Positions 5,327 to 63,439 of a stretch of 64,000 nt of DNA are shown here, piece by piece. A program made the position numbers and the translations under genes. The stretch's first letter is position 1. Every line of letters begins with the position of its first letter. The notes under the pieces were generated by a model that had not been told where the DNA came from, searched no databases, and was given only the letters and a program-made list of their open reading frames with translations. The stretch comes from Desulfofundulus salinus (GTDB taxonomy: Bacteria; Bacillota; Desulfotomaculia; Desulfotomaculales; Desulfovirgulaceae), in the NCBI RefSeq assembly GCF_003627965.1, contig NZ_RBWE01000001.1, positions 1,664,016 to 1,728,015 of the forward strand, in the 5' to 3' direction.

Positions 5327-7795
5327 ATGAAAGCAATCATTATGGCCGGGGGAGAGGGTTCCCGCCTGCGCCCCCTCACCTGCAACCGCCCTAAGCCCAT
5401 GGTGCCGGTAGCCAACCGGCCCATGATGTCTCACATTGTGGAACTGCTGAAAGCCCACGGTTTTACCGACGTGGCGGTAACCCTGCAATACATGCCGGAA
5501 GCCATCCGGGATTATTTCGGAAACGGCGCCCGGTACGGAATTAATATGCAATACTTCATCGAGGAAACCCCCCTGGGCACCGCGGGCAGTGTAAAGAACG
5601 CCCGGGAGTTTCTGGATGAAACCTTCCTGGTGATTAGTGGGGACGCCCTCACCGATTTAGATCTTTCCCGGGCCGTTGCCTTTCACCGCCAGCGGGGAGC
5701 CATGGCCACCCTGGTGCTTACCCGGGTGAGCTGTCCCCTGGAGTACGGTGTGGTTATCACCAAACCCGACGGACGCATCACCCAGTTTCTGGAAAAGCCT
5801 GCCTGGGGTGAGGTTTTCAGTGATACGGTAAACACGGGCATTTATGTGCTGGAACCGGAAGTCCTGGAATATATCGAACCCGGCCGCATGGTCGACTTCA
5901 GCAAGGATCTCTTTCCCTTACTGTTGCAGGAGAAAAAGCCGCTGTTCGGCGTGGTGCTGCCGGGCTACTGGTGTGATATAGGCAACTTGCAGCAATATTT
6001 GCAGGCCCATCAGGACGTTCTTTCGGGCCGGGTGAAAATTAACATTGCGGGCCGGGAAATTCAACCGGGAGTTTGGGTGGGTGACGGGGTGGATATCAGT
6101 ACCGGCGCCCGCATCACCGGTCCGGTCCTGATTGGAGACGGGTGTTACATCGGTCCCGGTGCGGAGATAGATCCTTTCAGTGTCCTTGGAGAAGGTTGTT
6201 TGATCCAGGAACGGGCCTCCATCAAGCGCAGCGTTCTATGGAACAACGTATATACGGGGCCGGGGGCGGCCTTAAGGGGGGCCATCGTAGCCAGCCGCGT
6301 GCAGGTGCAGGCCCACGCGGCGGTCTATGAAGGGGCCGTCATTGGCAGCGACTCGGTAATTCAGGAACGAAGCATAATCAAACCAGACGTAAAGTTATGG
6401 CCCCATAAACTGGTGGAAAGCGGTACCGTTGTCCAAAACAGTCTGGTCTGGGGTACCCGATACCCGAAGAAAATTTTCGGGCTTGAAGGTATCAGCGGCC
6501 TGGTTAATGTGGAGCTGACTCCGGAGTTTGCCTGCCGGGTGGGAGCGGCCTTTGCCTCGGCCATGGGCAGCCGGGGGGTGCACCTGGCTGTAAGCAGCGA
6601 TGCCTATCCGGCTTCCCGGATGATTAAATGCGCCCTGACCTGCGGGTTGCAGTCGGCCGGCGCACAGGTGGTGGACCTGGGCACCGGTATTACCCCCATG
6701 CAGCGTTTTGCCGTGCGCCAACTGGCGCTGGCCGGAGGGGTACATGTACGGCTATCTCCCCACCGCTCCGATCATGTAACTATGATTTTTATCAACGGCA
6801 AGGGCGGAAACATTTCCCGCAACGTCGAGCGAAAAGTGGAAAACTTGCTCATGCGGGAAGACTTTCACCGGGCTGAACCGCAGACCATCCTTCCCCCGGA
6901 GTTTGTTCCCGCCGTTCCCGAAAGTTATATCGAAGCCCTGATGCGGGATCTCGACCCGGCAGTGCTGGAGGAAGCGCGTTTCCGGCTGGTAGTAGCCTAT
7001 GATAGGGATAATTTGGGCCCCTTCCTGGAACATCTGATCGGAAGATTGGGCGTTATAGTGGAAAACCTGAACCTGCCGGCGGATACACCTCCCGCCACCT
7101 GGCGGAATTATCAGGAAACCTTGTCCTTCTTGGGCCGGCGGGTACGGGAAACGGGTGCTTCGGCCGGGGCGCTCCTGGATGCCAACGGCGACCGGCTGGT
7201 GCTGGTGGATGAACGGGGGCGGGTAATCCAGGATAACCTGCTTACCGCCCTGATCGCGCTCATCATCCTCCGGGCCCGGGGAGGACCGGTGGTAGTCCCG
7301 GTTACAGCCCCGCTGGCTATTGATACTCTGGCCGAAAAATACCGGGGACGGGTGGTACGCACCAAGACGGCCGTCCAGGACTTTGTGGAAAAAGTGCTGG
7401 GACAGGATGAGTTCCAGTTCCTCCTGAATTTTGATGCCCTGGGAGCCCTCACCCGCATCCTGGAGTTTGCCGCCAAAAACGGACTTACCCTCGGTGAGCT
7501 GGTAGATGAAATACCCACCTTTTTTATGGACCAGAAGGAGGTGCCCGTGCCCTGGGAGGCTAAAGGCCGGGTAATCCGGCGGTTGATTGAAGACCCTCCC
7601 ACAGCACAACTGGAGTTGCTGGATGGTGTAAAGGTTTTTCACCCCCAGGGATGGGCGCTGGTCCTGCCGGACCCCGACGAACCGGTTTGTCGGGTATTTA
7701 CCGAAGGAGCATCCATGGAAATCGCCCGGTCCTTGTGTGATTTTTACATTGATAAAATAAGTCAAATTGCGGGTTCTGCCGAAGCTACCGGTTAA
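5327..7795 (+). CDS. Sugar-1-phosphate nucleotidyltransferase fused to a degenerate phosphohexomutase
   Basis: An 822-residue fusion. Residues 1-235 are a nucleotidyltransferase domain ([19 protein letters not shown]). About 250-365 form hexapeptide left-handed beta-helix repeats ([19 protein letters not shown]). About 380-820 resemble phosphomannomutase/phosphoglucomutase. The catalytic serine loop, normally TASHNP, reads RLSPHRSD around residue 477, and the metal loop DGDGDR reads DANGDR around 618-623. Mutase activity is therefore doubtful. ATG 5327 is preferred over the GTG seven codons upstream because AGGAGGG fits it. The annotation usual for this family is mannose-1-phosphate guanylyltransferase/phosphomannomutase. 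Here it probably supplies activated hexose for the neighbouring glycosyltransferase. Confidence 0.9.
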
Positions 7796-55358: not shown

Positions 55359-55436
55359 CGGGGCGTAGCTCAGTTTGGCTAGAGCGCTACCTTGGGGTGG
55401 TAGAGGTCGCACGTTCGAGTCGTGTCGCTCCGACCA
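55359..55436 (+). tRNA. tRNA-Pro (anticodon GGG)
   Basis: The acceptor stem CGGGGCG pairs with CGCTCCG, followed by A and an encoded CCA. The D arm has GCTC/GAGC. The anticodon stem CTACC/GGTAG encloses TTGGGGT, giving anticodon GGG. The T arm has GCACG-TTCGAGT-CGTGT. The C1-G72 pair is typical of bacterial proline tRNAs. It is the apparent integration site of the element that follows. Confidence 0.95.
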
Positions 55437-55466: not shown

Positions 55467-55530
55467 TGACCACAAAAGGCAGTTGACCACAATTTTGACC
55501 ACAATGAGAATTGATGGTCTGTTGTGGTCA
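55467..55530. repeat. Four TGACCACAA repeats, probable integrase arm-type sites
   Basis: TGACCACAA occurs at 55467-55475, 55484-55492 and 55496-55504. Its complement TTGTGGTCA is at 55522-55530, overlapping the integrase stop codon. The cluster lies between the tRNA end and the integrase gene, where phage attachment arms lie. Confidence 0.7.
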
Positions 55531-56709
55531 TTGCCTTTTTGGGGCCACATTCAACAGGGAGGACAGCTTTTCCACCGCCCGGCGCTTGTCGTCCAACCCA
55601 CTGTGGCAGTAGGTTCCCAGTGTCGTGCGGATGTCGGCATGTCCCATCAGCGCCTGCAGGTTCCTGGGGTTTTCTCCAGCCTGGGCAATAGCATTCCCGA
55701 ATGTATGCCGCAGGGTGTGTACCCTTATTTCTTCCCGCAGGCCAGTTTTCTTCAGAATGCTTTTCAGCTTCCGCAAAAAGTTTCTCGGGTCAATGGGCTT
55801 TCCTGTGGAGGTACAGAAAACCAGGTCGTTGTCCTCGTATTCCCTCCCGAAGAAAAGCCTCTCTTCGTTCTGCCGGGCCTTATGCCTCTTCAACTCCTGG
55901 ACCACCTCGGGGAGCAGGGGAATGGTCCTCTTCCCGCTTTCTGTCTTAGGCTCGGAAAAGACCAGCTCCGTTTTGCCCGGTTCGATTTCCACCCTGGACA
56001 GGGATTCACGAACGGTTATAGTCCCGGCCTTGAAGTCAACATCACTCCAGCGCAGGGCCAGCAGCTCACCCCTCCGCAGGCCGGTGAACAGGTCCAGCAG
56101 GAAGGCCGCATACAGACGGTCACCCCTGGCAGCCTCCAGGAATTTGGTCACTTCTTCCTCTGTCAGCGGTTCAACCTCTCTGTACTTTACCTGTGGCCGT
56201 TCCGTATACTCGGCAGGGTTGTTCAGAATGACCCTCTGCTTGACGGCCTGTTTTAAGCTGCCGTTGATTATCTGGTGCAGTATGGCAATGACACTGCTGG
56301 AGTGTGTTTGGGCCTTCTCGTTGTAAAACTCCTGGATGTGTTCCGTGGCCAGTTTCTGCAGCTCGATGTGACCCAGGGCAGGGACGATGTGCGTCCTGGT
56401 GTTAATCTGGTATTTGGCATATGTACTCTGCCGCACCTTCGGCTTTACAAACAGCTCCAGCCAGCGATTGACCCACTCACCGAAGAGGATTTTCTGCGGT
56501 TCAACGTAAGTGCCGGTCCTTACGGCGGTCAGGTATGCATCCCGCTTTTCAATAGCCTCGGCCTGTGTTTTGCCGTAGAAGTGTTTAAACTTCGGTTTGC
56601 CGGTAACAGGGTCTATTCCTACAGTAATCCTTGCCTCCCAACGTCCATCAGGCCGCTTCCTGACAAGCCCTTCACCGCTCGCCCGTTTCTTCGTCTTTCT
56701 CTTCGCCAT
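55528..56709 (-). CDS. int: Tyrosine site-specific integrase
   Basis: A 393-residue phage-type integrase. Its AP2-like arm-binding N-terminus is GLVRKRPDGRWEARITVG, the SAM-like core-binding domain lies at about 75-165, and the catalytic domain at about 180-375. The catalytic residues are the arginine in TGLRRGELLALRW, HTLRHTFG with H-x-x-R, and GHADIRTTLGTYCH with the tyrosine nucleophile. It begins with ATG after GGAGGGG. It sits 91 bases from tRNA-Pro and presumably recombines at that tRNA. Confidence 0.95.
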   Translation of the reverse strand: MAKRKTKKRASGEGLVRKRPDGRWEARITVGIDPVTGKPKFKHFYGKTQAEAIEKRDAYLTAVRTGTYVEPQKILFGEWVNRWLELFVKPKVRQSTYAKYQINTRTHIVPALGHIELQKLATEHIQEFYNEKAQTHSSSVIAILHQIINGSLKQAVKQRVILNNPAEYTERPQVKYREVEPLTEEEVTKFLEAARGDRLYAAFLLDLFTGLRRGELLALRWSDVDFKAGTITVRESLSRVEIEPGKTELVFSEPKTESGKRTIPLLPEVVQELKRHKARQNEERLFFGREYEDNDLVFCTSTGKPIDPRNFLRKLKSILKKTGLREEIRVHTLRHTFGNAIAQAGENPRNLQALMGHADIRTTLGTYCHSGLDDKRRAVEKLSSLLNVAPKRQ

Positions 56710-59645: not shown

Positions 59646-59855
59646 TTAGTGGGGGGGCCGGGAAGACCCAGCCGCCCCATATGTTAACGGCCTGGCCGGG
59701 CCGGTTCGTTGTTTCCGCTCCCGCGCCCGGATGATGGCCTTGCCGCGCCGTATGGCCGCCTTCCAAAGCTCGGGGTCGCGGGCCAGCAGGGAGATAAGTT
59801 CCGTTTCGGTGAGAAACAGCCTGCACCTGGTAAGCCGTATCTCAATCAGCCGCAT
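59646..59855 (-). CDS. Small hypothetical protein
   Basis: A 69-residue protein not recognised. It has a predicted helical core (TETELISLLARDPELWKAAIRRGKAIIRAR), basic in its second half. ATG 59855 follows GAGGGGTGG and overlaps the end of the upstream gene by 14 bases, which supports real translation. Confidence 0.6.
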   Translation of the reverse strand: MRLIEIRLTRCRLFLTETELISLLARDPELWKAAIRRGKAIIRARERKQRTGPARPLTYGAAGSSRPPH

Positions 59856-60324
59856 GCGTCCGCCACCCCTCGGGGGAATGCCACCGTTTCCCGGCTGCTT
59901 CCACCACGGGCAGGGGGGAAGCAAAAATCGTGTCCAGCACCTGCGCCTGCTCATCGGTAAGGTTCCAGGTCCTGTCGCAGCCGAACATCTGAATGACTTC
60001 GTCCGCCGTCAGCGGTCGCTGATCCCGGTAGGCTGTAACCACGTCCCAAATGGCCCTCTCGAAAACCTGTGCCGCCTTCCGGCAGCCGGCCATGTCCCTG
60101 GCCCGATATGCCCGGTCAAACTGTTGCTCTGCTTCGGTGATGGCTTCCACCAACTCCGGGTGGTGCTTCTCGGCCCAGGGTATGGACCCGGTGACGTAGG
60201 TGTTTTTCGCCCGTTCAAGGACCTCCCGGAACAGGGCTTCGGCCTGGCGGGGGTCGAACGTACCAACGTCACCAAGTATGGCCGTTTGAGGAGAAATTTT
60301 AAACTCGGCCAACCATTTCCCCAT
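59842..60324 (-). CDS. Hypothetical element protein
   Basis: A 160-residue, mostly helical protein not recognised. ATG 60324 follows GGGGGG. Its N-terminus (KISPQTAILGDVGTF) is encoded by a partial copy of the repeat module that also forms R1 and R2. The aligned segment in the upstream gene's product is KIYPQTPQARTDIGDVGD. No catalytic motif seen. Confidence 0.62.
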   Translation of the reverse strand: MGKWLAEFKISPQTAILGDVGTFDPRQAEALFREVLERAKNTYVTGSIPWAEKHHPELVEAITEAEQQFDRAYRARDMAGCRKAAQVFERAIWDVVTAYRDQRPLTADEVIQMFGCDRTWNLTDEQAQVLDTIFASPLPVVEAAGKRWHSPEGWRTHAAD

Positions 60325-60355
60325 CGCTTTTACCCCCCTTACATACCTACCCCAC

Positions 60356-60493
60356 AAAAATTTTCCCTAAAAGGGTCAGGTAAGGTACTGACACCGCTGA
60401 CGTTGGTCACTAAAATACGGTATTGCTGGCATATGTTAGTCGCCAACGTCACCAATGTCGGTACGTGCCTGGGGCGTTTGGGGGTAAATTTTT
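60356..60493. repeat. 135-bp repeat module, copy R1
   Basis: It aligns along its length with 60906-61042: AAAAATTTTCC, GGTAAGGTACTGACA, GGTCACTA, CCAACGTCACCAATGTCGGTAC and a GCGTTT...AAATTTTT end. The ends of the module are inverted repeats of each other. It sits between two minus-strand genes and overlaps the 3' end of one. Confidence 0.75.
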
Positions 60494-60888
60494 TCAATCT
60501 CCCCTCCCGATAGCCGCAGGTGTTTGGCGAATATGCGACACATTGCCTGATGAATGTATGCCTCTTCACCCACCGGGCAGGGGGCAATAGAAATAATGGT
60601 TGGGCCGTTACCATAAACGACAGTCTGTTTGCTCCTGGGGAGTTTTTTATCTATACACCACCGGGCAAACATCGCCTCAAAAACACCGGCAATTTCGTAC
60701 CTGCCCTCTTCCGTAAGTGAAAACCCTGCACGCTGGACGGGCAGCAGGTCACAGTAGTACTCGCCATATTTCCTACCTCTGGCAAAAAACGCATATGGAA
60801 AGATTTTGTCGCAACACTCCTGCCACGCACCCTTTACTCTGTCACCGTTCCAAAGGGGAGTCTTGAGAAATCTCTTATCCCAAACCAT
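60436..60888 (-). CDS. Hypothetical element protein
   Basis: A 150-residue protein not recognised. It begins MVWDKRFLKTPLWNGDRVKG and has a GFSLTEEGRYEIAGVFEAMFARW segment. ATG 60888 follows GAGAGGTG. Its C-terminus (about 20 residues) is encoded by repeat copy R1, which may have been captured into the frame. Lower AT/GC contrast and cysteine content give no functional clue. Confidence 0.62.
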   Translation of the reverse strand: MVWDKRFLKTPLWNGDRVKGAWQECCDKIFPYAFFARGRKYGEYYCDLLPVQRAGFSLTEEGRYEIAGVFEAMFARWCIDKKLPRSKQTVVYGNGPTIISIAPCPVGEEAYIHQAMCRIFAKHLRLSGGEIEKIYPQTPQARTDIGDVGD

Positions 60889-60905
60889 CCTGCATGCACC
60901 TCTCA

Positions 60906-61042
60906 AAAAAATTTTTCCTCAAACGGCCGGTAAGGTACTGACATTGGTGACATAGGTCACTATAAAGTGGCAACGCTGTCATTCATTAGGTACCAACGTC
61001 ACCAATGTCGGTACCTTCCGGGTGCGTTTACGGGAAAATTTT
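60906..61042. repeat. 135-bp repeat module, copy R2
   Basis: Second copy of the module at 60356-60493. GGTACTGACATTGGTGACATAGG (first 20 bases at 60933-60952) is the inverted match of the CCAACGTCACCAATGTCGGTACC arm ending at 61015, with about three mismatches. It lies just upstream of the 60436-60888 gene and overlaps the end of the DUF3987 gene. Confidence 0.75.
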
Positions 61043-62593
61043 TGGGTTCACACGGTACACGATTTTGGGCTGCCGTCCAGGAACATCTTCGGGCACCGGC
61101 TTTAACCAGCCAGCATCCACAAGCTCATCACATGCCGCCTGGACCAGTTCCCTGCTGTTAAGCAAGTACCATCCCTTGCGGTAAACATCCCGCACAGTAA
61201 AACCATCTTTCAAAACGCGTTTTTGGATTTTCTTTGCCAGCTCCGCCGCCGCCCGCTGGCCAACACTTCCCACCAGGCCATAAATCCGCCTGGCGTGCGA
61301 TTCAAGGTAATCGCACCACGCTGCGGCCATCTTTGCTGCTTTAAGCGAAACATCACCTTCCGCAGCACCTGCCGCAATGTCGATCAGGTGAATAATGAGG
61401 GCCAGGCTCGGCATCAAGCTGCGGTATTTACTCAGATGCTCTAACAGTGCAGGAGGGTCATCCCGCCTCAGTTTCTCGTTCTCGAGCTCTGTCAGCCATT
61501 CGTAAAAAAGGTCCTGGGCTTCGTTATCAAAACGAAAGTATGGAATTCTCTCGCCCTCGTCCAGTCGGGCACCGTAGGCCACGAAGTCCATCTTATCCAG
61601 GCGCTCAATCACCTTAAAAGCTAGTTCCTGTGCCTTCTTATCAGGGTAACGGTCCACCAGTTCCCAGTCCCCGAGTTCATCGGGGAAAACCAGCAACTGC
61701 AACCTTTGCATTAGGCCGTCGTTTTCTAATTCGTTCATTGCCTGGTGGAGGTAGGCCAGTAGTTTCGCCGGCTGGATACCGCCCAGGATGGACACACAAA
61801 GGTTGTCCACGTGGATCGTCCCCCTCCCTATGCGGTCGGTGGTCATGCTCCCGTAACCATTCCACGCCTCCAAATAAAAGGCACGGTCCGTTTCTCTACC
61901 TTCTTTGTCCCAACCTGCCAGTAAGCCGATTAATTCATCTCTAAACAGGAGGATTCCACGCGGGTTTTCCGAAAGCAATTCGCTCATCTTCTCGATTGTC
62001 GCATCGTTCGTTCGGTAGCGCCTCCAGACGGGGGGTTCAGGCTCCTTCAGGTTTAGATATTGCTGGCGCAGTTCTGCCAAAGATAGTCCCTCGGTCTTTT
62101 TCTTACCCTTCGTTGCTTCTAGCATTTTTGATTTAAGGGCTTCCTTCTGCGCCTTGAAAAGCTCTCTGTCCGCCTCATATTCTTTCATCGCGGCTTCGTA
62201 TTCTTTACGCGCACGCACCTCCAATGGGACCAAGGGCTTTAAAGCCTCCGCGAGTGCGGGGGTCTTCAACTTTCCGGGTCGGGCTATAGGACCACCCCAA
62301 AGGTTGGGTACCACAAGCCAATCGTCATATTTTTTGGGTCTTATCCCGCATCCCGTGCCGATTATTGATCCGGTCATAATGATGGTAGGAACGGCAACAA
62401 AGTCGGCGGGGCACTGCATCCGATAGGAAACGTCCATTACCCACGGTCTGAACGGTTCTGGAATTATTTCTGGGGGAAGTTTTTCCACAGGCAGTAGATA
62501 AGTCCCGAGAGGCTCCGGGTCCGGCCAATCCTCGACGGTGGTCAACAATTCCGCCTGCTCGTCCTGGGTCAGAAGCTCCGTCACACAACCCAC
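61028..62593 (-). CDS. DUF3987 protein (YfjI-like, replication-associated)
   Basis: A 521-residue protein of the DUF3987 family. It has RMQCPADFVAVPTIIMTGSIIGTG, then NLWGGPIARPGKLKTPAL at the degenerate nucleotide-loop position, a coiled-coil insert (about 125-195), and the helicase-like core FRDELIGLLAGWDKEGRETDRAFYLEAWNG. A winged-helix-like end follows. Such proteins partner primases in phages and plasmids. GTG 62593 is 7 bases after GGAGGT. It overlaps the end of the primase gene, so the pair is co-translated. Confidence 0.85.
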   Translation of the reverse strand: MGCVTELLTQDEQAELLTTVEDWPDPEPLGTYLLPVEKLPPEIIPEPFRPWVMDVSYRMQCPADFVAVPTIIMTGSIIGTGCGIRPKKYDDWLVVPNLWGGPIARPGKLKTPALAEALKPLVPLEVRARKEYEAAMKEYEADRELFKAQKEALKSKMLEATKGKKKTEGLSLAELRQQYLNLKEPEPPVWRRYRTNDATIEKMSELLSENPRGILLFRDELIGLLAGWDKEGRETDRAFYLEAWNGYGSMTTDRIGRGTIHVDNLCVSILGGIQPAKLLAYLHQAMNELENDGLMQRLQLLVFPDELGDWELVDRYPDKKAQELAFKVIERLDKMDFVAYGARLDEGERIPYFRFDNEAQDLFYEWLTELENEKLRRDDPPALLEHLSKYRSLMPSLALIIHLIDIAAGAAEGDVSLKAAKMAAAWCDYLESHARRIYGLVGSVGQRAAAELAKKIQKRVLKDGFTVRDVYRKGWYLLNSRELVQAACDELVDAGWLKPVPEDVPGRQPKIVYRVNPKIFP

Positions 62594-63183
62594 GGGAACC
62601 ACCTCCGGGCATACCGCCAGGCCTCCACCTGCCGGGCCGGGTCTCGGGACGTTAACTCGTCCAACACATATTCCAAGAGGGGCTGGGCGTGGACGAGTCT
62701 ACTCAGTCGTTTGTAATCCTCGGGCGTCCGCAGGCTCCGGAAAATGCACCGGTGCAGCATGGCCAACCGCTGGCGAATCCGCTCAAGGTCGGCCTTGAAA
62801 GCCTGCTCAATCTCCCTTTGGCGGGCCGCTTCCTCTGTTTTGCGCCTGGTCTCCGAGGAAAGGGGCCGGTTATTCACCGGCAGGCCAAAGTCGCGGCATA
62901 TTTGCCGGGCCGCTTCGATGGGCCGCAGGTTAAACAACCGGGACACCAAGTCCGTCGCATCGCCGTGGGCCTGGCATCCGAAACAACGCCATCTGCCATC
63001 AGGGAAAAGGACCAGGGACGGGTTGTTGTCTTGGTGGAAAGGGCACCTGGTCAACCACCGGCTGCCAGCCCGCCGCAGTTCCAGGCCATAACGCCGGGCC
63101 ACATCGGTAAGAGGAATTTCCCTGGTCAGCTGAAAAACATCGTGGGAACGTGCTATACTATGCATAGAGAGCATCGCCTCCAT
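62581..63183 (-). CDS. CHC2 zinc-finger primase-type protein
   Basis: A 200-residue protein. The CHC2 zinc finger RCPFHQDNNPSLVLFPDGRW continues to RCFGCQAHGDATDLV (residues about 40-75), as in DnaG-type primases, but no TOPRIM domain follows. The second half is helical. The start is uncertain; ATG codons at 63183, 63174 and 63165 are all possible. Together with the following DUF3987 gene it looks like the replication module of the element. Confidence 0.83.
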   Translation of the reverse strand: MEAMLSMHSIARSHDVFQLTREIPLTDVARRYGLELRRAGSRWLTRCPFHQDNNPSLVLFPDGRWRCFGCQAHGDATDLVSRLFNLRPIEAARQICRDFGLPVNNRPLSSETRRKTEEAARQREIEQAFKADLERIRQRLAMLHRCIFRSLRTPEDYKRLSRLVHAQPLLEYVLDELTSRDPARQVEAWRYARRWFPWVV

Positions 63184-63235
63184 CACAAGTTGCTCCACAT
63201 CCCCTTTTCGTCCACCCGGCCGCCGCCGGGGTTTT

Positions 63236-63439
63236 TTATTTTGCTTCCCGATTCCACCAATCGATGAAAGCCTGTTTATTAATAATCCACCGGCGGCCAA
63301 TCTGCTTCGCGGGAAACCCCTGACTCCGAACGAGCTGGTAGGCTCTCGCCTCGGCAATGCCGAGAATCCGCGCTACCTCTCGCGGGCCGATGAAATCGCC
63401 CACATCATTGAGATTCAGTCGGTTGCTGGCAGTCCGCAT
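63236..63439 (-). CDS. Excisionase-family DNA-binding protein
   Basis: A 67-residue MerR-like helix-turn-helix protein (IGPREVARILGIAEARAYQLVR, then IGRRWIINKQAFIDWW), the standard excisionase/HTH_17 form. AGGAGGGTGAC precedes the ATG. It is divergent from the gene at 63531 and upstream of the primase. It may act in excision or regulate the divergent promoters. Confidence 0.82.
   Translation of the reverse strand: MRTASNRLNLNDVGDFIGPREVARILGIAEARAYQLVRSQGFPAKQIGRRWIINKQAFIDWWNREAK

Follow-up and report, generated by a model that had tools for sequence, protein, structure and literature searches.

We propose with good confidence that the DUF3987 helicase encoded by a small integrative element in Desulfofundulus salinus uses the repeat modules beside its gene as iteron sites, and that these most likely serve as the element's replication origins. 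The architecture, position and spread of these modules, together with their covariation with the protein, are established by comparison of sequences; their likely reader is the DUF3987 protein itself. This supports one of the proposals made in an earlier note on this DNA, namely that the repeats are iterons for the adjacent primase/DUF3987 system.

The integrative element and its repeat modules

The window, by which we mean the whole stretch of 64,000 nucleotides that was analyzed, contains the final 45 bp of a tRNA-Pro gene that recur identically at 64710-64754, beyond the window. From these repeats at both ends, the element spans 9,318 bp, reaching as far as C1:1728769 in the genome. The following features of the element are relevant here:

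55392-55436, plus strand: attL, the final 45 bp of tRNA-Pro(GGG)
55528-56709, minus strand: the element's own tyrosine integrase
59842-60357, minus strand: MGKWLAEF ORF, with ATG at 60324 and a leader of the WL-ORF type that carries the half module
60436-60906, minus strand: 156-aa ORF between R2 and R1, its C-terminus supplied by R1
61028-62602, minus strand: DUF3987 protein of 524 aa, with an AAA+ core and a winged helix
62581-63357, minus strand: fragment of a CHC2 zinc-ribbon DnaG-type primase, 258 aa
63236-63439, minus strand: small HTH_17 / AlpA- or excisionase-like protein (HTH_17 above its cut-off, the AlpA and excisionase models just under theirs)

The families PF00589, PF12728 and PF13148 all scored above cut-off in the element, which also holds two XRE-type HTH proteins and several ORFs of no assigned family; family searches with the 156-aa ORF (60436-60906) likewise gave no family. 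The primase fragment (62581-63357) matched the N-terminal part of the PADLOC models for UG29-type defence reverse transcriptases (E 4e-22), a match that probably reflects the shared zinc-ribbon primase domain alone.

The earlier note had described two modules, R1 and R2, that align over their full length and have self-complementary arms able to pair, and both statements were borne out. R1 and R2 are direct repeats of 138 nt that share 74% identity in a gap-free alignment at a spacing of 550 bp. Within each module, the two arms form a long inverted repeat (62 nt at 71% complementarity and 57 nt at 72%), and R2 folds as single-strand DNA at -32.9 kcal/mol, compared with a shuffle mean of -12.95 (z -7.2). 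What the earlier note had missed is the composition of the arms. They are built of 9-bp tandem units (GACRTTGGT), which stand on both arms of each module in head-to-head orientation, with outer AT-rich boxes (AAAAATTTT..AAACG) on either side of the units. The modules and their parts are located as follows:

60906-61043, minus strand: R2, the complete module, with an AT box, two 9-bp units, a 34-bp centre, two inverted 9-bp units and an AT box; it overlaps the final codons and the stop of the DUF3987 gene, and its arms are non-coding
60992-61009, minus strand: R2 left arm, in the DUF3987 sense, GACATTGGT GACGTTGGT
60940-60957, plus strand: R2 right arm, on the strand opposite the DUF3987 sense, GACATTGGT GACATAGGT
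60356-60493, minus strand: R1, the second module, one half of which forms the C-terminal codons of the 156-aa ORF
60442-60459, minus strand: R1 left arm, GACATTGGT GACGTTGGC, inside the coding part
60390-60407, plus strand: R1 right arm, degenerate, GACACCGCT GACGTTGGT, the first unit read by eye
60260-60302, minus strand: decayed half module with one intact unit and an AT box, encoding KISPQTAILGDVGT in the MGKWLAEF ORF

Two further statements of the earlier note, that a third, partial copy encodes the N-terminus of one protein and that R1 encodes the C-terminus of another, also proved correct. The half module supplies KISPQT..GDVG to the ORF at 59842-60357, and R1 supplies KIYPQT..TDIGDVGD to the ORF at 60436-60906. 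The earlier note also missed how the module itself explains these shared peptides: in-frame translation turns the AT box into KI.PQT and the units into GDVGD.

The search of the element's own genome (2.89 Mb, E <= 10) listed 15 matches, of which four were R1 and R2 on either strand and the remaining 11 were no longer than 21 nt, two of them in the half copy; there was no copy of the module outside the element among these matches. The earlier note had suggested looking for the module in the rest of the genome and in related elements. The genome proved to hold it only here, whereas most of the relatives collected carry the same architecture, composed of different units, after the DUF3987 gene. 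We also considered a recent duplication as the source of R1 and R2, which found no support: R1 and R2 agree in 107 of 137 positions, and this likeness is no greater than that between R2 and a Pelotomaculum copy in locus L018 (104 of 133). The two module copies within L018 agree in 115 of 120 positions.

Inverted 9-bp arrays after the DUF3987 gene

Relatives were collected with a four-protein alignment, which gave 80 genome loci (the best 80 of at least 268 confirmed) and 29 loci on viral contigs. The genome loci span many phyla, as judged by record titles. Two of these 109 loci were dropped, L098, which shares its contig with L014, and L123, which lacks the C-terminus, and clustering at 90% reduced a set of 111 loci to 101 by removing ten near-duplicates. 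The closest viral match, L014, has a DUF3987 protein 56% identical to that of the window, directly followed by an ORF starting MGKWLAKF..., and the DNA of this ORF contains inverted GACA units at 9-bp spacing. Inverted 9-bp arrays are visible by eye in most relatives, and their units differ, including ACTGACAAA, ACTGCCAAA, CCCTACAAA, ACCCCCAAA, ACCTTCAAA and others.

The period of the arrays was confirmed by counting. Within 300 bp after the DUF3987 gene, we found 483 exact 6-mer self-matches at period 9, distributed over 80 of 98 loci, compared with at most 38 at any other period from 3 to 40 in the same loci. At period 9, the control regions gave 25 self-matches in 15 of 96 loci (within the DUF3987 gene) and 15 self-matches in 12 of 80 loci (at +1.5 kb). 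In 77 of 101 loci, a joint score for direct 9-bp repetition plus inversion was higher than in 99% of 1010 dinucleotide shuffles, a level that eleven other periods reached in 26 to 33 of the 101. When up to 5 kb on each side was searched, the best inverted 9-bp array fell between -20 and +450 of the end of the DUF3987 match in 74 of 101 loci, the window's included; this interval makes up 6.4% of the searched stretch on average. The AT boxes are also a general property of the arrays. In 61 loci with an array score of 22 or more, they stand about 21-27 bp outside both arms, with AT peaks of 0.90 on the left and 0.85 on the right versus 0.46 in controls.

The arrays are not ubiquitous. By eye, none was seen after the DUF3987 genes of L054, L060, L063 and L079, and none was found at Escherichia coli K-12 yfjI, which also belongs to DUF3987, so that the rule is limited to a subfamily of DUF3987. 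One locus from the same genus as the window, L013 (G252:C15, 3668-6870), encodes a DUF3987 protein of 33% identity and has, by eye, CCCGACAAATA repeats about 11 bp apart rather than 9. Its array-following ORF (6400-6870), located after DUF3987, resembles by eye the body of the window's MGKWLAEF ORF minus the WL leader. At a divergent DUF3987 locus, L153, the gene is followed by head-to-tail 9-bp units, TTAACACAT, with scattered inverted copies. The Acinetobacter plasmid pYUSHP14-1 (L015, 6683-9354) carries DUF3987 with an inverted ACTGACAAA array beside ISAba1 and streptomycin-resistance genes. Mixed-unit arrays follow DUF3987 in L115 (CCGAC beside CCCCC) and in L118 (TGAC and CGAC); possibly these are sites caught in the middle of a change of specificity.

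Among free plasmids, we considered candidates in which DUF3987 is the sole replication gene. Bartonella tribocorum pBT01 was ruled out by RepC and a Sulfitobacter plasmid by its annotated replication initiator A, each present in addition to DUF3987. The Priestia and Salinibacter plasmids were set aside as their DUF3987 matches stop short of the C-terminus. A Rhodovastum plasmid of 10.7 kb has no other annotated Rep and shows, by eye, 9-bp-spaced inverted repeats after DUF3987; its DUF3987 protein has an alignment gap at position 475.

Many of the arrays lie within genes. Arrays could be placed in 89 of the 101 loci (those with a score of at least 20 and a few added by eye), with placements that are off the visible units in at least L016, L060 and L110. 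According to a loose WL pattern, 44 of the 89 are in an ORF of the M..W(L) type, eight are in another ORF, nine are at the DUF3987 3' end, and 28 are in no ORF. In the 44 captured cases, the array lies within the 5' part of the gene that follows DUF3987. Under a strict definition, with WL in the first ten residues, the leader is present in 30 of the 44 array ORFs versus 19 of 1454 other ORFs. The reading frames of the units are distributed as 27, 2 and 4 of 33 after register correction (24, 2 and 8 of 34 uncorrected), three of the eight being rotated registers and the ambiguous L043 being excluded. Depending on the frame, the units are translated as TDKTDK, NPQNP or LTKLTK peptides. Since units occur in all three frames, selection acts on the DNA, though one frame is preferred. 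Where the start of the next gene reads through the site, one stretch of DNA thus provides both a protein site and codons. This kind of capture is seen in many relatives, and in the window only in part.

Residue 475 of the DUF3987 protein and base 4 of the unit

The predicted full model of the DUF3987 protein (pLDDT 92.5) comprises an AAA+ core at about 45-445 and a C-terminal winged helix at about 447-518, which includes Arg475. In this model, the core has the AAA+ fold of MCM proteins (6mii_B: Z 18.0, 269 aligned, rmsd 3.6), with helicase activity predicted; the best Foldseek E was no lower than 1.3e-3. The winged helix modelled alone (pLDDT 87.9) had its best match in the repressor VanR (Z 9.5, 66 aligned, rmsd 1.9), and winged helices of other transcription factors were close behind. 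Residue 475 is placed by the model immediately past the second helix of this domain (470-474). In FadR, a GntR-type regulator, an arginine of the same winged-helix region contacts a base.

We compared all protein columns with the class of the unit in 78 loci, for which hand labels of the units were fixed before residues were tabulated, although four of the proteins had already been displayed earlier. Column 475 ranked at the top with z 18.5 (runner-up 9.0). Arginine occupies this position in all 47 GA-class and all 13 GC-class loci by hand labels, and in two of the three loci of the GT class, which also has G at base 4, the third (L062) having lysine. In the 15 loci of non-G classes, residue 475 is Lys, Gln, Leu or His; one label in this test, TT for L119, differs from the actual reading, CCCTC.

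Similar results were obtained with automated units in 88 loci, a set for which the caller gave no valid call for the window itself and several other loci. Base 4 was again associated with column 475 (z 14.2, next 8.5). Base 3 was led by the same column (z 9.0) and base 2 by column 477 (z 6.0), whereas columns 393 and 264 came before column 474 (z 4.2) at base 5; with column 393 in the lead there, part of the signal is shared ancestry. This column test was run without L058, which was included in the automated table and the tree. In the fully automated table of 88 loci, Arg475 is accompanied by G4 in 67 of 70 loci, and a non-Arg residue by a non-G base in 16 of 18. The three arginine exceptions are L039 and L044, in which the register is rotated by one base, and the ambiguous L058, which reads T4; the two others are L062 and L146, both with Lys475 and G4. 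Using a tree built without the C-terminus and automated calls, we counted 11 independent pairs on supported branches, with a mean of 9.7 in agreement, none opposite and a median p of 0.002. With hand calls added, the same tree gave 12 pairs (10.6 in agreement, none opposite, p 0.001); in this version 35 loci, L058 (Arg) among them, were either assigned a unit or omitted on visual inspection, at a point when the residues could be seen. By these sequence comparisons, residue 475 covaries with base 4 over about ten phylogenetically independent switches.

A prediction rule (Arg to G; Lys to C; Gln, Leu or His to T) was recorded ahead of fetching held-out loci. Of 38 loci flagged, L126, L128, L155, L172 and L174 had no C-terminal match, and L147, L160, L168, L169, L175 and L176 were removed as near-copies of loci in the first set. 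In the 17 loci with automated calls, G was found for Arg in 12 of 12, T for Gln in two of two and C for Lys in one of two, and a single Val, which is outside the rule, went with T. Hand calls, made while the residues could be seen, extended this set to 24 loci, in which the rule held for Arg in 13 of 14, for Gln or Leu in five of five and for Lys in one of three, and both Val loci had T. The sole arginine failure among the 14 was L162, with T4 and G5 by eye. Both held-out failures of Lys475 had CCGGC units (L146 and L180), and on the available sequences Lys475 falls outside the rule. In addition, Gln475 in L119 and its copy L160 is accompanied by C4 (CCCTC) and not T4. Together with the lysine failures, this indicates that the code needs context beyond one residue.

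Two genomes contain several of these loci with unlike units. Genome G300 has CTAC units at L038 and L042 and CCGGC units at L146, while genome G299 has TGCC units at L039 and CTAC units at L145; in both genomes residue 475 differs as well. Different iterons and different residues within one genome are as expected if specificity separates replicons.

Proposed function and comparison with known systems

In the mechanism that we propose, the DUF3987 protein would bind the 9-bp units through its C-terminal winged helix, with the loop 474-477 reading unit bases 2-5 and Arg475 reading the G at base 4. The two oppositely oriented sets of units would load the helicase, probably as two rings face to face, after which the AT boxes would melt, and the CHC2 primase would start synthesis once the element is excised. 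What we infer here is that the protein physically binds the sites, that rings are loaded, that the DNA melts and that the sites act as origins. A broader reading, to which we give about equal chances of being right or wrong, would extend this to mobile elements of many phyla. Their origins would have 9-bp iterons, and the DUF3987 protein, as an MCM-like helicase that loads itself, would read these with its C-terminal winged helix in a short collinear code in which residue 477 specifies base 2, residue 475 bases 3-4 and residue 474 base 5. Repeated switches of the code would let several elements share a cell without cross-firing, and the origin would commonly be embedded in coding sequence. Neither DUF3987 iterons, nor a residue-base code, nor capture in genes was found in the literature searched, which largely excluded subscription papers and preprints. 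If the proposal is true, DUF3987 moves from a predicted helicase to an initiator that recognizes its own origin, and the origins of many unclassified integrative elements and satellites become predictable from sequence alone. Puzzling peptides of the TDKTDK..FVSFVS and GDVGDV types would be explained as captured origin DNA. A natural residue-to-base code would also make the replication compatibility between elements predictable, with about ten independent switches to compare.

Alternatively, the DUF3987 protein might use the sites for excision, packaging or concatemer recombination rather than for origin firing. PICMI satellites depend on prim and alpA and occur as concatemers (PMC10803314). 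However, the same paper reports that excision of PICMI115 needed alpA, int and iolg and that deletion of its DUF3987-type prim lowered the circular/concatemer copy number, and a place just 3' of an initiator-type helicase gene is that of known or putative origins in PMC6092414 and PMC7581432, so that we regard this alternative as quite improbable. The modules might also, as the earlier note likewise suggested, be operators that are bound by the DUF3987 protein or by an XRE repressor and regulate the following genes, with no role in the start of replication. This has more in its favour, as R1 and R2 each precede a gene, the two XRE-type HTH proteins are encoded in the element, and a cis element serving as an operator would look identical. 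Head-to-head sites are, moreover, common in operators. We still consider it unlikely, because the covarying residue belongs to the DUF3987 protein and not to a repressor, the sites are found behind the DUF3987 gene or in the gene that follows it and not at a promoter of the replication genes, and the DUF3987 protein has an MCM-like fold in the model.

The other two explanations are less probable still. The earlier note had also proposed a miniature mobile unit, and self-complementary ends and two copies are what a MITE-like unit inserted twice would leave. Yet the 2.89-Mb genome holds no dispersed copies, only R1, R2 and the half copy, and a module confined to the element is not expected of a miniature transposon. 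Relatives keep the module at a fixed position after the DUF3987 gene with differing unit sequences, and it covaries with the neighbouring protein; fixed position and covariation refute this idea as the main explanation, leaving it a very small probability. Smaller again is the chance that the module acts in the DUF3987 transcript as an RNA hairpin or as a terminator. The fold is strong, albeit computed as DNA, but an RNA would need neither 9-bp direct repeats within the arms nor a match to a protein residue, many arrays are inside coding sequence, and Rfam gave only sub-threshold matches at the module, with no family at gathering score.

The preferred reading, in which the modules are origins read by the element's own DUF3987 protein, has several parallels. 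Phage P4 (alpha/ori/crr) has a primase-helicase initiator that reads repeated short sites in more than one cis region; it differs from the present system in the protein family and the unit. In PICI replicons, iterons are located just 3' of rep (PMC6092414). The resemblance to the PICI / SaPI pri-rep-ori arrangement includes an initiator gene followed by iterons in two sets, nearby genes of primase and excisionase type, and a small integrative element. As in PICI, the iterons of the window are immediately 3' of the initiator gene, R2 overlapping the DUF3987 stop codon, and there are two iteron sets. In contrast, the AT-rich part stands between the iteron sets in PICI origins and outside both sets here (61 loci), the initiator here is DUF3987 with a predicted MCM-like fold, and the site is often inside a gene.

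PICMI satellites of Vibrionaceae, as described in PMC10803314, have an integrase, AlpA and a DUF3987 protein annotated as primase as their core, and the element contains the same set of int, alpA (PF05930 or PF12728) and DUF3987 prim. PICMI integrate beside fis, whereas the 45-bp att repeat here is the 3' end of tRNA-Pro. The word "iteron" is absent from the main text of that paper. In PMC5862659, DUF3987 domains fused to primases were predicted to represent new helicases in mobile elements, and for another family, PolpTN2, it was suggested that a C-terminal winged helix recognizes the origin; in the available text of this paper, DUF3987 iterons or a recognition code were not found, with zero occurrences of "iteron".

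In SCCmec, the Cch2 protein binds to repeats situated downstream of the gene that encodes it, and the C-terminal domain in isolated form also binds the putative origin (PMC7581432). The likeness consists of a helicase gene with short repeats just downstream and a C-terminal domain as reader, which is putative here. The iterons of Cch2 are 5-nt direct repeats (AAGTG), and Cch2 is discussed together with D5-family helicases (PMC7581432). In the present system, by contrast, the units have 9 bp and form inverted pairs, the DUF3987 core is MCM-like, and a protein residue covaries with a base across many phyla. Taking PICI, SCCmec Cch2, the prim of PICMI115 and the helicase prediction together with the covariation, we regard DUF3987 as a self-recognizing initiator and the module as its origin as the best reading.
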